Shown piece by piece: positions 9,589 through 29,115 of a DNA stretch of 51,802 nt (positions are counted from its first letter, which is position 1; each line of letters begins with the position of its first letter). The stretch lies in the NCBI GenBank assembly GCA_947630675.1, contig CANRIN010000007.1:1-51802 (forward strand). The letters are read 5' to 3'. The notes under the pieces were generated by a model. The model saw only the letters and a list, made by a program, of their open reading frames with translations, was not told the DNA's origin and made no database searches. The position numbers were made by a program, and so were the translations under genes. The DNA comes from an uncultured Clostridia bacterium. GTDB taxonomy: Bacteria > Bacillota > Clostridia > Oscillospirales > JAAYOS01.

Positions 9589-9974
9589 CGCCTCGCAGAG
9601 AATGCGCCCTCAACTTGCTTCGCACCGGCACTTTCTACCGGGCGCATCAGAATCCCAAACGGCGTTTTACGCCGTTTGGGGACCCCGTTAATTGAAAAGC
9701 TCGGGACAAATGAATTGCCCCTGCGCAAATTCGACGCTTCGCGCCGAAAAACGCCTCGCAGAGTTTCGCGCCGAAGGCGCGAAATAAATTCAAATCCGTA
9801 AATTTCGGCGGCGTGTACGGCGAAATTTACACCTCTCGCGGAGCGTGCGTCGATTTTCCGCCGTAGGCGGAAAACTCGGCGCGTAGCGGAGCGTATAGCA
9901 CCGGCAGAGCTCCGCTCTGTCCGGTGCTTTCGCGGCAAATTGGTAAGCGAGCGAAGCGAGCGCGATTTGCCGCG
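9589..9974. repeat. Composite hairpin repeat, locus A (fills most of a 505-base spacer)
   Basis: The spacer 9477-9981 has no gene. Module E (9589-9646) recurs inverted at 17397-17455. Module H (9653-9731) begins with an 11-bp hairpin (CCCAAACGGCG / CGCCGTTTGGG) and recurs at 17127 and 27732. Module L (9798-9830) has a GTAAATTTCG/CGAAATTTAC stem around GCGGCGTGTACGG; the loop recurs inverted near 17294-17311 on a different stem. Module D (9931-9974) recurs inverted at 17022-17074. Stems differ in sequence between copies but remain paired. No transposase or coding frame is present. Confidence 0.75.
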
Positions 9975-9981
9975 AAATTTT

Positions 9982-10563
9982 TTAAAATGCCGCCTTGAAA
10001 TTCTCCGCCATCTCTGCGGCATGGTCGCTCACGGCAAAGAAGACGTAGTCGCCCTCCTGCACCAGCTCATACTGCTTGACGAGCTCGTACTGCTCGGGGA
10101 GGTAGGTCGCCCACGTCTGCTCGAGCGAGGACACGCGGTTCTCGATGGCCTCCACCACGGCGTCCATATTCCCCGACTTCACCTTTGCCGCGAAGAACTC
10201 GGTCGCGGTGACGTTCATGAGCGGGAACTTGCCGGCGTACTCGTCAAGCAGCGACGGGTCAATGCCGTAGGTGTCGCTTAGAATACTGTCGTCAAAGTCC
10301 ATCATGGCGGGCAGGTCGTCGTAGTCCTCTGCGACCTTGTCCATGAATCCCTTGACGTCCGAAACGTCCTCATAGCCGCCGGACGTACCGCCGGGGTTGG
10401 AGTCGGGCTCGTCGGAAGGTTCGTCGGTCACGGGTGCGGACGGCTCTACGGACGGAGCGGTCGAGGGTTCGGTGCTCGTGCCGCCGTTCCCGCCGCCGCA
10501 GGACGCAAGCCCGAGCGCAAGCGCGAGCGCGAGGATAAGTGCGATGATGCTTCTCTTTTTCAT
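9982..10563 (-). CDS. DUF4358 lipoprotein (paralogue 1)
   Basis: 193 residues. The lipoprotein signal ends in LASC with Cys near 22. A Ser/Thr/Glu/Pro linker (about 28-65) precedes a C-terminal DUF4358 domain (about 85-193) with DFDDSILSDTYGID, LLDEYAGKFPLMNV and DYVFFAVSDHAAEMAENF. Anchored on the outer face of the membrane; family function unknown. A second paralogue lies directly upstream on the same strand, sharing EYAGKFPLMNV and QYELV. A possible operon with it: the 88-base gap holds a GGCCGCAC/GTGCGGCC palindrome but no T tract. Confidence 0.85.
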   Translation of the reverse strand: MKKRSIIALILALALALGLASCGGGNGGTSTEPSTAPSVEPSAPVTDEPSDEPDSNPGGTSGGYEDVSDVKGFMDKVAEDYDDLPAMMDFDDSILSDTYGIDPSLLDEYAGKFPLMNVTATEFFAAKVKSGNMDAVVEAIENRVSSLEQTWATYLPEQYELVKQYELVQEGDYVFFAVSDHAAEMAENFKAAF

Positions 10564-16436: not shown

Positions 16437-17015
16437 ATGAGCGAGACTCTCAGGAGGGTCATCCTTTCGGACGGCTCGCCGCTCGAATACACGCTTGTGC
16501 GCGGAGGCGTGAAGAACATCAATCTGCGCGTCCGGACGGACGGCACGGTGCGTGTCTCCGCGCCCGCGAGGGTACCCGTGGGTACTGCGGACAGCATCGT
16601 GCTCGGGCGCGCGGAGTTCATCCGCTCCGCGCGTGAGGAGCTTCGCCGCCGTGAGGAGCGGCGTCCCGCCCCGGAGCGGCGCATCCCGGAGGCGGAGTGC
16701 CGCGCCGCCATCCGCGCGGCGGTGGACGCGGTCTACCCCGCGTTTCGCTCCATGGGCGTCCCCTACCCCGAGCTGCGCTTCCGCGATATGAAGACGCGCT
16801 GGGGCGTCTGCCGGTACCGCGACGGGATAGTCACCTTCAACACGCGCCTTGCCTACGCGCCGAGGGAATGCATAGAATACGTCGCGGCGCACGAGCTCTG
16901 CCACTTCATCCACCCCGACCACTCCGCGCGCTTCCACGCCCTCATGGCGTCCGTCATGCCGGACTACCGCGAACGGAAGCGGCGTCTCTCGGAGAGCGCC
17001 GCCGCGTGGCTGTAG
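16437..17015 (+). CDS. YgjP-like metallopeptidase-domain protein (DUF45)
   Basis: 192 residues. The zinc site HELCHFIHPDH gives H152, E153, H156 and probably H162. The preceding RFRDMKTRWGVC block and the end YRERKRRL are typical of DUF45/YgjP-like zincin proteins. Cytosolic, no signal peptide. Role in bacteria poorly known. Starts 1 base after the dcd stop with GGAGGCGGAG upstream, so it is co-transcribed with dcd. Confidence 0.88.
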   Translation: MSETLRRVILSDGSPLEYTLVRGGVKNINLRVRTDGTVRVSAPARVPVGTADSIVLGRAEFIRSAREELRRREERRPAPERRIPEAECRAAIRAAVDAVYPAFRSMGVPYPELRFRDMKTRWGVCRYRDGIVTFNTRLAYAPRECIEYVAAHELCHFIHPDHSARFHALMASVMPDYRERKRRLSESAAAWL

Positions 17016-17021
17016 TCATCT

Positions 17022-17455
17022 CGCGGCGAATCGCAGTCGCGGGCCAAAGCCCGCTCCTTTACCAATTCGCCGCGGGGCCGCCGTACAGGTCAAAGCCCTG
17101 TCGACGGCAACGCTCCGCTCTGCAATTCCCACGCGGCTGGGCCGCGTGGGAGCCCTTCTGATTGAAATGCTCGCCGGAAATGAATTCCGGCTCCGCAAAG
17201 TTGCTTGCCTATGGCAAGCAACTTTAACCGCGCGAACCGGCGCGGAACCGCCTGCGGCGCTTCGAAGCGCGCTACGCGAGAGGAGTTTTTCCGCCGTACA
17301 CGCCGCCGAAAAAGCGGATAAAACTCTATTCGCCGCTAAAACGGCACCTCCGGTTCGTACAATGTTGGGACGTCGGCGCGGAGCGCCGAGGTCTAATGCG
17401 CCCGGTAGAAAGTGATGGTGCGTAACAGGTCTAGGGGCGCATTCTCTGCGAGGCG
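17022..17455. repeat. Composite hairpin repeat, locus B (gene-free spacer 17016-17678)
   Basis: Module D (17022-17074) and module E (17397-17455) are inverted copies of those at locus A. In D the A-T pair of CGGCAAAT/ATTTGCCG at locus A becomes a G-C pair here (CGGCGAAT/ATTCGCCG). Module H (17127-17246) holds four successive hairpins: CCCACGCGGC/GCCGCGTGGG, GCCGGAA/TTCCGGC, a 13-bp AAAGTTGCTTGCC stem, and CCGCGC/GCGCGG. Module L lies at 17283-17326. The remaining 17456-17678 contains a small GAGATAC/GTATCTC hairpin near 17550 and a TATGAT at 17619 that may be a -10 box of the next gene. Confidence 0.75.
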
Positions 17456-17678
17456 GGCGCGGGAAATCACGCGCGCTATGCGCACGGACGCTTTGCGGCC
17501 GCAGCGACGTGCATATTGAAAGCGGCCCCGCCGTGTGGTATCATTGAGATACGAAGGTATCTCCCGCGATTTTAGAAATATTTAAGATATAGTTTCTTTG
17601 GAGTTTAGATTTCCCTGATATGATATGACTGTAAGCTCAAAGGAGACGTCTCGTGAGAGCTTCGGAAAGGAGCGGCTT

Positions 17679-27617: not shown

Positions 27618-27731
27618 GGGCGGCCGCACTTTCCGTACGCAAAAGAGGCGGGATGCAAAGCATCCCGCCTCTCCTATGGCTGTGATTACTCCTCGATGTC
27701 GATAACGACGCCCGAGCCAACCCTGCGGCCG
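27618..27731 (-). pseudogene. Duplicated 3' end of tuf with terminator
   Basis: Near-identical to 27855-27964, the end of the real tuf. It carries the last 14 codons ([14 protein letters not shown], one ACG-to-AGG change giving Arg for Thr), the TAA (27688-27686) and a terminator. The terminator loop region differs (ATGC-TTT-GCAT rather than GC-GCAA-GC) yet still pairs. No other part of tuf is present. It is a tail-only fragment about 235 bp downstream of tuf, separated from it by a module H repeat. Confidence 0.85.
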
Positions 27732-27852
27732 TTTCCCCATTCGGCCACAGCCGAATGGGGACCCCTTATATTAAAATGCTCGCCGGAAATAAATTCCGGC
27801 TGCGCGAAGTTGGCAGCTTCGCCGCCAACTTCAACCGCGCGAACAGGCGCGG
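27732..27852. repeat. Hairpin repeat module H, locus C
   Basis: Same order as at 17127: CCCCATTCGGC/GCCGAATGGGG hairpin, the conserved linker around ATTAAAATGCTCG, GCCGGAA/TTCCGGC hairpin, GAAGTTGGC/GCCAACTTC hairpin, and CCGCGC/GCGCGG hairpin. The linker and small loops are conserved between loci while stem sequences vary. It sits exactly between the two copies of the tuf tail. Confidence 0.8.
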
Positions 27853-27876
27853 GAGGGCGGCCGCACTTCCGCGCAC

Positions 27877-27904
27877 AAAAGAGGCGGGGCTTGCGCCCCG
27901 CCTC
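27877..27904 (-). terminator. Intrinsic terminator of tuf (str operon end)
   Basis: On the minus strand GAGGCGGGGC-GCAA-GCCCCGCCTC followed by TTTT, 15 bases after the tuf stop. A second terminator of the same ancestry lies at 27641-27671. Confidence 0.92.
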
Positions 27905-27918
27905 TCCTATGGCTGTGA

Positions 27919-29115
27919 TTACTCCTCGATGTCGATAACGACGCCCGAGCCAACCGTGCGGCCGCCCTCACGGATAGCGAAGCGGAGGCCCTTCTCGATG
28001 GCTATCGGGGTGATGAGCTCGACCTTCATGTCGACGTTGTCGCCGGGCATGCACATCTCGGTGCCTTCCGGAAGGGTGATAACGCCGGTAACGTCGGTGG
28101 TACGGAAATAGAACTGCGGACGATAGTTGCTGAAGAACGGCTTATGACGGCCGCCTTCTTCCTTCGTCAGAACGTAGACCTGGCCGGTGAACTTGGTGTG
28201 CGGATGAATGGTGCCGGGCTTGGCCAGAACCTGGCCGCGCTCGACCTCGTTCTTCGCGACGCCGCGGAGCAGGCAGCCGACATTGTCGCCGGCCTCAACA
28301 TAGTCGAGGGTCTTGCGGAACATTTCCATCGAGGTAACGACGGTGTTGCGCTTCTCGTCGGTAAGGCCGACTATCTCGACCGGCTCGCCGGCCTTCAGCT
28401 GGCCACGCTCGACACGGCCGGTAGCGACGGTACCGCGGCCGGAGATGGTGAAGACGTCCTCAACCGGCATAAGGAAGGGCAGGTCGCTCTTGCGGTCCGG
28501 GGTCGGGATGTGGTCGTCGACCGCGTCCATAAGAGCGCGGATGGACTCGTAGACCGGGTCGTTCGGGTCGGTGGACTCGCTCGTAAGAGCCTCAAGAGCG
28601 GAGCCGCGGATGATCGGGACGTTCTCGAAGCCGTAGCTCTCGAGAAGCTCGGTGACTTCCATCTCGACGAGGTCGAGGAGCTCAGGGTCATCGACCTGGT
28701 CGCACTTGTTGAGGTAAACGACCATCGTCGGAACGCCGACCTGACGGGCGAGCAGGATGTGCTCACGGGTCTGGGGCATCGGGCCGTCCGCCGCGCTGAC
28801 AACGAGGATAGCGCCGTCCATCTGAGCAGCGCCGGTGATCATGTTCTTGATATAGTCGGCGTGGCCGGGGCAGTCGACGTGCGCATAGTGGCGCTTGTCG
28901 GTCTCGTACTCGACGTGAGCGGTGTTGATGGTGATGCCGCGCTCGCGCTCCTCCGGGGCCTTATCGATCATATCATAAGCCTCGTACTGAGCCTGGCCCT
29001 TGAAAGCCAGATACTTGGTGATAGCGGCGGTAAGAGTGGTCTTGCCGTGGTCAACGTGGCCGATAGTGCCGATGTTGACATGCGGCTTCGTACGTTCAAA
29101 TTTTGCCTTGGCCAT
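27919..29115 (-). CDS. tuf: Translation elongation factor EF-Tu
   Basis: 398 residues from ATG 29115 ([23 protein letters not shown] upstream). G1 GHVDHGKT, G2 region with [12 protein letters not shown]3 DCPGHADY, and G4 NKCD; domains 2 and 3 complete to [12 protein letters not shown] GTPase that brings aminoacyl-tRNA to the ribosome. Last gene of the str cluster, with its own promoter in the 117-base gap after fusA, allowing the extra expression EF-Tu needs. Its 3' end is duplicated downstream. Confidence 0.98.

Follow-up and report, generated by a model that had tools for sequence, protein, structure and literature searches.

The hairpin element described here, designated E, is a mobile element. 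It was delineated in a window of 51,802 nt, meaning the whole stretch of DNA that was analyzed, from an uncultured Clostridia bacterium. The evidence makes it likely that E belongs to an order-wide family of non-autonomous elements, each consisting of a fixed chain of hairpins of ~200-230 nt, that insert at terminator stem-loops while duplicating them and have their stems remodelled by block replacement or arm copying. With roughly 120-150 copies per 2-Mb genome in many congeneric genomes, this is a large natural system that bears on two open questions: whether compensatory evolution arises from template switching or from point mutation plus selection, and whether transposition guided by structure is capable of duplicating an entire stem-loop, a possibility put forward as pathway b in PMC5678879.

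Structure and distribution of the element

Collecting copies genome-wide and aligning them by structure placed the bounds of one complete E-type element (locus A) at positions 9752-9977 on the minus strand, where it matches R1, the covariance model of E used for copy searches, over its full length (265 bits). The unit is ~226 nt long, has the termini TTTCGC../..GAGGC, and comprises five hairpins spaced by strongly conserved linkers in the order hp5-hp4-hp3-hp2-hp1-CTCTGCGAGGC, as laid out from an alignment of 35 copies. On the minus strand, hp5 (9928-9977; assigned from sequence) begins a few nucleotides past the TAA stop codon of an upstream minus-strand open reading frame (9982-10563; DUF4358) and is followed by hp4 (9898-9927), which occurs as two main block alleles (GCACCGG.. 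and CCGCCGG..). The segment at 9830-9897 contains hp3 (9854-9874) flanked by the linkers CGCTCCGCTACGCGCC and TCGACGCACGCTCCGCGAGAGG, both conserved in the 35-copy alignment. The loop of hp2 (9799-9829), GTACACGCC, is constant while its stem has four main alleles, and hp1 (9764-9784), defined from the same alignment, is followed by the 3' tag CTCTGCGAGGC (9752-9763), which is conserved across the order Oscillospirales.

Searches with R1 recovered at least 139 copies in the window's genome, far beyond chance, and at least 117, 130, and 149 copies in three congeners, all of these numbers being lower bounds; no E copy was recovered by R1 from a further congener, G002. Relatives matching R1 were present in 34 of 295 Oscillospirales genomes, representing 20 genera, and a DNA pattern combining the 3' tag and the hp2 loop matched at least 116 contigs, from Flavonifractor, Oscillibacter, Intestinimonas, Sporobacter termitidis, Papillibacter, and many Oscillospiraceae MAGs. 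Common to these relatives are the core GAGAAG-hp2(GYRCAYGYC)-ATT..-hp1-AACTCTGCGAGGC and an outer stem around hp3; their ends are degenerate (AGACTGTC../..GACAGTCT). At the gathering score, neither the window nor the element copies at 20 relative loci matched any Rfam family, loose thresholds gave sub-threshold matches only, none of them relevant, and no paper describing such an element was found in the literature searched. One Oscillospiraceae MAG (L325:4830-5034) carries three tandem hp1-hp2 units with a period of 71 bp, as if the core amplifies in tandem, and sixteen contigs of the viral collection IMG/VR (L362-L377), which may be prophages or host fragments, carry the element pattern. Additionally, another hairpin-rich repeat array, built of GCGGGGAAGCCCCGC and GAACCTAGCGGTTCC units, adjoins one E copy (L013:750-1500), and the congener G001 contains a CRISPR-like array (C2:21897-22116; L151:1897-2116) with a 33-nt repeat, GTCGCGCCCCGCACGGGGCGCGTGGGTTGAAAT, and a period of ~67.

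Insertion at terminator stem-loops

In 31 of 107 relative loci the element sits between two direct copies of one sequence, an arrangement seen in none of 400 cross-locus controls. Almost every such duplicated sequence is an entire stem-loop of an intrinsic terminator, 24-42 bp long, whose loop has the same orientation in both copies; the downstream hairpin copy is followed by T-rich sequence and the upstream copy by the element, at fixed offsets. The resulting arrangement in relatives is A-tract, hairpin, element, hairpin, T-tract. Since the terminator stem-loop is duplicated around it, an inserted element is in most cases incorporated into the 3' UTR, and elements of this kind remodel the 3' ends of numerous genes in common gut Oscillospirales. 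In DNA from outside the genus (distant-homologue, G021, and genome-contig loci), palindromic direct repeats occur almost only at a spacing of 200-330 bp.

The copy in G267 (L215), which lies between two terminator hairpins, can be compared with the orthologous site in ten congeners: nine have a single terminator hairpin and no element, with apices that vary among them, and the tenth has diverged. The comparison of this filled site with nine empty ones demonstrates insertion with stem-loop duplication for the G267 copy; other copies of the element presumably arrived in the same way. For E copies of the window's own genus, flanking stem-loop duplication did not exceed the control, and thus the evidence for the insertion rule comes from relatives, its extension to the genus resting on homology. 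Presence/absence pairs between G000 and G001 (L020, L061, and L066) were rejected as proof of insertion because G001 mostly retains remnants, which resembles deletion, and the copy at L219 was not usable for an empty-site comparison because synteny is broken in its genus. At one of these loci (L020; L154:13840-13960), an E copy in G000 separates a promoter -10 box from the start of a gene, at a place where G001 has only a short palindrome. In G021 (L113:1234-1725), an element is located between a T-box terminator and ileS, within the regulated leader.

Position and orientation follow the genes. In G001, 40 of 44 placed copies are sense to the upstream gene (p = 1.7e-8), with 19 sense and 3 antisense copies in co-directional spacers; about half of the 40 begin no more than 15 nt past the upstream gene's stop codon, and in several of the remaining copies an additional hp5-like hairpin intervenes between the stop codon and the element. 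A promoter -10 box marks the start of a few copies, and the copy in G267 has the antisense orientation. A role of replication direction in setting orientation was rejected, as orientation follows transcription and there is no leading-strand preference in G001 (27 lagging versus 17 leading copies). Terminators are polar and their targeting explains both position and orientation; an RNA function would do so as well.

The element is short, present in high copy, devoid of open reading frames, and polymorphic for insertion between relatives, all features of miniature inverted-repeat transposable elements (MITEs), and the target-site duplication of MITEs is seen in relatives (31 of 107 loci) but not for E in its own genus. 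Like bacterial MITEs and the BOX, RUP, and SPRITE repeats (PMC10969869; PMC3049150), E and its relatives are short, non-coding, high-copy, intergenic, structured, and mutually inserting. They differ from these repeats in that no autonomous partner was found, they have weak terminal repeats or none, and a hairpin, not a fixed length, sets the extent of the target duplication; for bcr1, BOX, and RUP the comparison is with literature descriptions only. The element is therefore MITE-like, with a target choice that resembles those of IS1272 and group IIC introns, and is set apart by its hairpin-defined duplication and by the frequent replacement of paired blocks.

The initial annotation suspected a REP-type transposase, and the present elements do share with REP/BIME sequences and their RAYT partners (PMC3733652) the occurrence of hundreds of transcribed, extragenic palindromic units near gene ends. 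Mobilization by a RAYT (Y1 HUH) transposase would account for high-copy extragenic hairpins beside genes. However, the unit is a 226-nt chain of five hairpins rather than a 20-40 bp palindrome with a GTAG/CGTC tag, no short GTAG-tagged palindrome is present, and the target hairpin is duplicated on insertion. Moreover, Y1_Tnp (PF01797, RAYT type) is absent from the five congeneric genomes (G000-G004) and from the element-bearing genomes G113, G126, and G267, which refutes this origin for the genus unless the gene lies in unassembled sequence; overall, it is barely credible. A retroelement, in which a reverse transcriptase inserts RNA copies at terminators, would fit the strong transcriptional orientation of the element and has a precedent for target choice in group IIC introns, which recognize and prefer intrinsic terminator stem-loops (PMC7161350). 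Those introns combine a ribozyme with a reverse transcriptase, whereas RVT_1 is absent from G000-G004 and from the element-bearing G113 and G267; the whole-hairpin duplication and the lack of any intron-like ends noted also argue against such an origin, which is very unlikely.

The closest precedent is the IS1272/IS1182 family, for which structure-dependent, "stem-loop replacing" transposition has been described (PMC5678879). As in that family, the targets are stem-loops of unrelated sequence. Unlike IS1272, which encodes its transposase and replaces its target stem-loop without duplicating it, the present elements are non-coding, ~200-230 nt in length, and duplicate the stem-loop. No IS1182-type gene could be linked to them, as no IS1182-type transposase was detected by motif in the 3.3 Mb of DNA searched or by Pfam among 38 atypical proteins of G001, both of which are weak tests; nor was an autonomous copy of the element present in the DNA searched. 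By analogy, the best guess for the mobilizing enzyme is an IS1272/IS1182-like, structure-guided DDE transposase. Such an enzyme, acting in trans, would join the element to two opposite feet of an extruded terminator cruciform, and gap filling or repair would then duplicate the terminator hairpin; these two steps would correspond to pathway b in the model of structure-dependent transposition put forward for IS1272 (PMC5678879). The recognition sites are probably the conserved unpaired parts of the element, namely the hp2 loop, CTCTGCGAGGC, and GAGARG.

How stems change and stay paired

The compensatory stem changes reported in the initial annotation hold up in the 35-copy alignment. Of all structure cells, 98.4% are paired, and 186 cells are changed on both sides, compared with 44 +/- 5 after shuffling, a count that 0 of 500 shuffles reach. 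The covariation score is 0.295, compared with 0.101 for shuffled alignments (0 of 500); sliding the partners yields at most 0.084. One-sided stem changes are strikingly rare, and ordinary duplication with unpaired stem differences, which was looked at as an explanation, is not what the copies display. A long-range helix suggested by RNAalifold (columns 103-109 with 246-252) has no two-sided changes, which speaks neither for nor against it. More generally, covariation among copies of a repeated element does not, taken alone, prove that an RNA is under selection.

At 15 orthologous sites, i.e., copy pairs from two genomes that were matched by their upstream flank (88-97% identical), 89 two-sided changes from one Watson-Crick pair to another were counted versus 19 single-sided changes (8 to G-U, 8 to A-C, and 3 to other mismatches). 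In 83 copies with 3822 pairs, 3705 are Watson-Crick, 27 are G-U, 42 are A-C, and 48 are of other kinds. The acceptor stems of tRNAs from the same organism have 7 G-U and 1 A-C in 112 pairs, and the element differs from them both in G-U against A-C (Fisher, p = 0.019) and in G-U frequency (p = 3.6e-5), G-U being about nine-fold rarer in element stems. An RNA strand under selection is expected to tolerate G-U over A-C. The lack of such an excess, together with the matched blocks, favors a DNA-level process over slow selection on RNA.

An alternative is that the copies are a selected, structured 3'-UTR RNA (an mRNA stabilizer, or a termination or processing element) that spread by duplication and whose stems are compensated through selection at the RNA level. 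The sense orientation, the sites just past stop codons or promoter -10 boxes, and the order-wide conservation of loops and linkers would all be expected of such an RNA. Yet G-U pairs are rarer than A-C pairs, double changes dominate even at short divergence, insertion events are marked by hairpin duplications, and the congener G002 lives with no copy at all; taken together, these observations make a purely RNA-level origin doubtful.

The manner in which stems change points instead to arm copying or block replacement in DNA. All 12 pairs of hp2 are perfect in 72 of 82 copies, hairpins with mixed arms are nearly absent, and at orthologous sites hairpins swap independently, as units. Between one copy in G003 (L090) and its counterpart in G004 (L096), a left arm that was bulged now complements the right arm exactly, and the loop GGATTTCATCC has been turned into its reverse complement, GGATGAAATCC. 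Loop inversion accompanied by arm copying is regarded as the strongest support for template switching (PMC8794818), a process that creates and maintains hairpins in rRNA, where loop inversions are very rare (PMC8794818). The elements share with those hairpins the matched multi-base stem changes, stem extension, and inverted loops attributable to a single event; unlike in rRNA, template switching would here act at a high rate and on high-copy mobile elements. Two copies of the tuf terminator in the window likewise have different apices that are each perfectly paired (ATGC-AAA-GCAT versus GC-TTGC-GC). The initial annotation offered selection on structure or hairpin-dependent replication as explanations; both may operate, and the excess of double over single changes, the lack of a G-U excess, the loop inversion, and the tuf apices favor a hairpin-dependent DNA process.

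Template switching may not be needed for much of the block exchange, which ectopic recombination between copies could also produce. In its full form, this explanation accepts the mobility proposed above and derives compensation wholly from gene conversion among intact copies and the loss of broken chimeras, with no arm copying. It accommodates the small number of stem alleles shared among copies and genomes (four main alleles for hp2) and the independent swapping of hairpins at orthologous sites. However, no donor is evident for the loop inversion and bulge repair at L096, for the replaced tuf apex, or for the varied terminator apices at empty sites, and the homology between copies around a hairpin spans merely ~15-25 nt; recombination as the sole cause is rather unlikely. 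Strong evidence instead suggests that stems stay complementary through whole-hairpin block replacement combined with intrastrand template switching, along with some selection for foldable copies. After insertion, template switching and exchange between copies would both remodel the stems, with the arms re-copied from each other by intrastrand switches during DNA synthesis. A more speculative and rather improbable proposal is that these are mobile hairpin arrays, transposase-independent or RNA-guided, that land on terminator cruciforms, grow by nesting, and keep their foldability through their own replication errors (arm-copying template switches), such that structure is inherited mutationally rather than by selection.

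Nested modules and duplicated gene ends

The mosaic order of modules in the window arises from nesting: modules H and D are hairpin elements in their own right, both of them found nested in E, and H additionally beside gene ends. Modules D, E, H, and L had been reported to recur at 9.6, 17.0, and 27.7 kb, a description that is accurate for H at all three loci and for D and E at loci A and B, while locus C proved to contain H only. In a repeat search of the window, H recurred at 9671, 17141, and 27750, and D and the core of hp2 appeared as inverted copies between loci A and B; R1 matches locus A in full and locus B in interrupted form, and has no match at locus C.

Based on sequence and the repeat search, positions 9590-9746 at locus A, downstream of E, comprise a D module with the tag GCCTCGCAGAG (9590-9651, plus strand) and H, a four-hairpin element (9652-9746, minus strand). 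Locus B is an E-type element (17019-17355, plus strand; R1, 112 bits) interrupted at its hp3 junction by a nested H (17121-17250, plus strand; sequence and repeat search), a nesting that also occurs in G003, and followed by a D module (17343-17455, plus strand) in which 17392-17436 is an inverted copy of the D of locus A. The insertion site of H in locus B and in G003 is the hp3 linker region, and that of D in other E copies is the hp2 loop. Across genomes, locus A ranges from no element in G002 through plain E in G001 to E with H and D in the window and, in G003, to an E that carries H at hp3 and D within the hp2 loop. A segment of the window that includes locus B and a gene for a YgjP-like metallopeptidase (16437-17564) has neither of the two at the orthologous place in G001.

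At locus C, H (27732-27854, minus strand, in tuf sense; sequence and repeat search) is flanked by two ~110-bp copies of the tuf 3' end and terminator, an arrangement akin to the stem-loop duplications around the elements of relatives; an inverted repeat edges the duplicated unit. The original copy, with the stop codon, occupies 27855-27964 (minus strand) and is bounded by GGGCGGCCGCAC and GTGCGGCCGCCC. The second, identified by the repeat search (27618-27731, minus strand), has 1 mismatch in the 68 nt beside the hairpin and a terminator apex that was replaced as a paired block. Like tuf in the window, rplL in G001 has its 3' end and terminator duplicated around H as ~110-bp copies, again edged by an inverted repeat, and in this case two H modules lie inside the duplication (C4:59185-59705; L176:19185-19705). 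Past the first terminator of the rplL locus there is an inverted copy (GGCCTCGGCGTCTTCC) of coding sequence from the left edge of the repeat, a possible template-switch scar.
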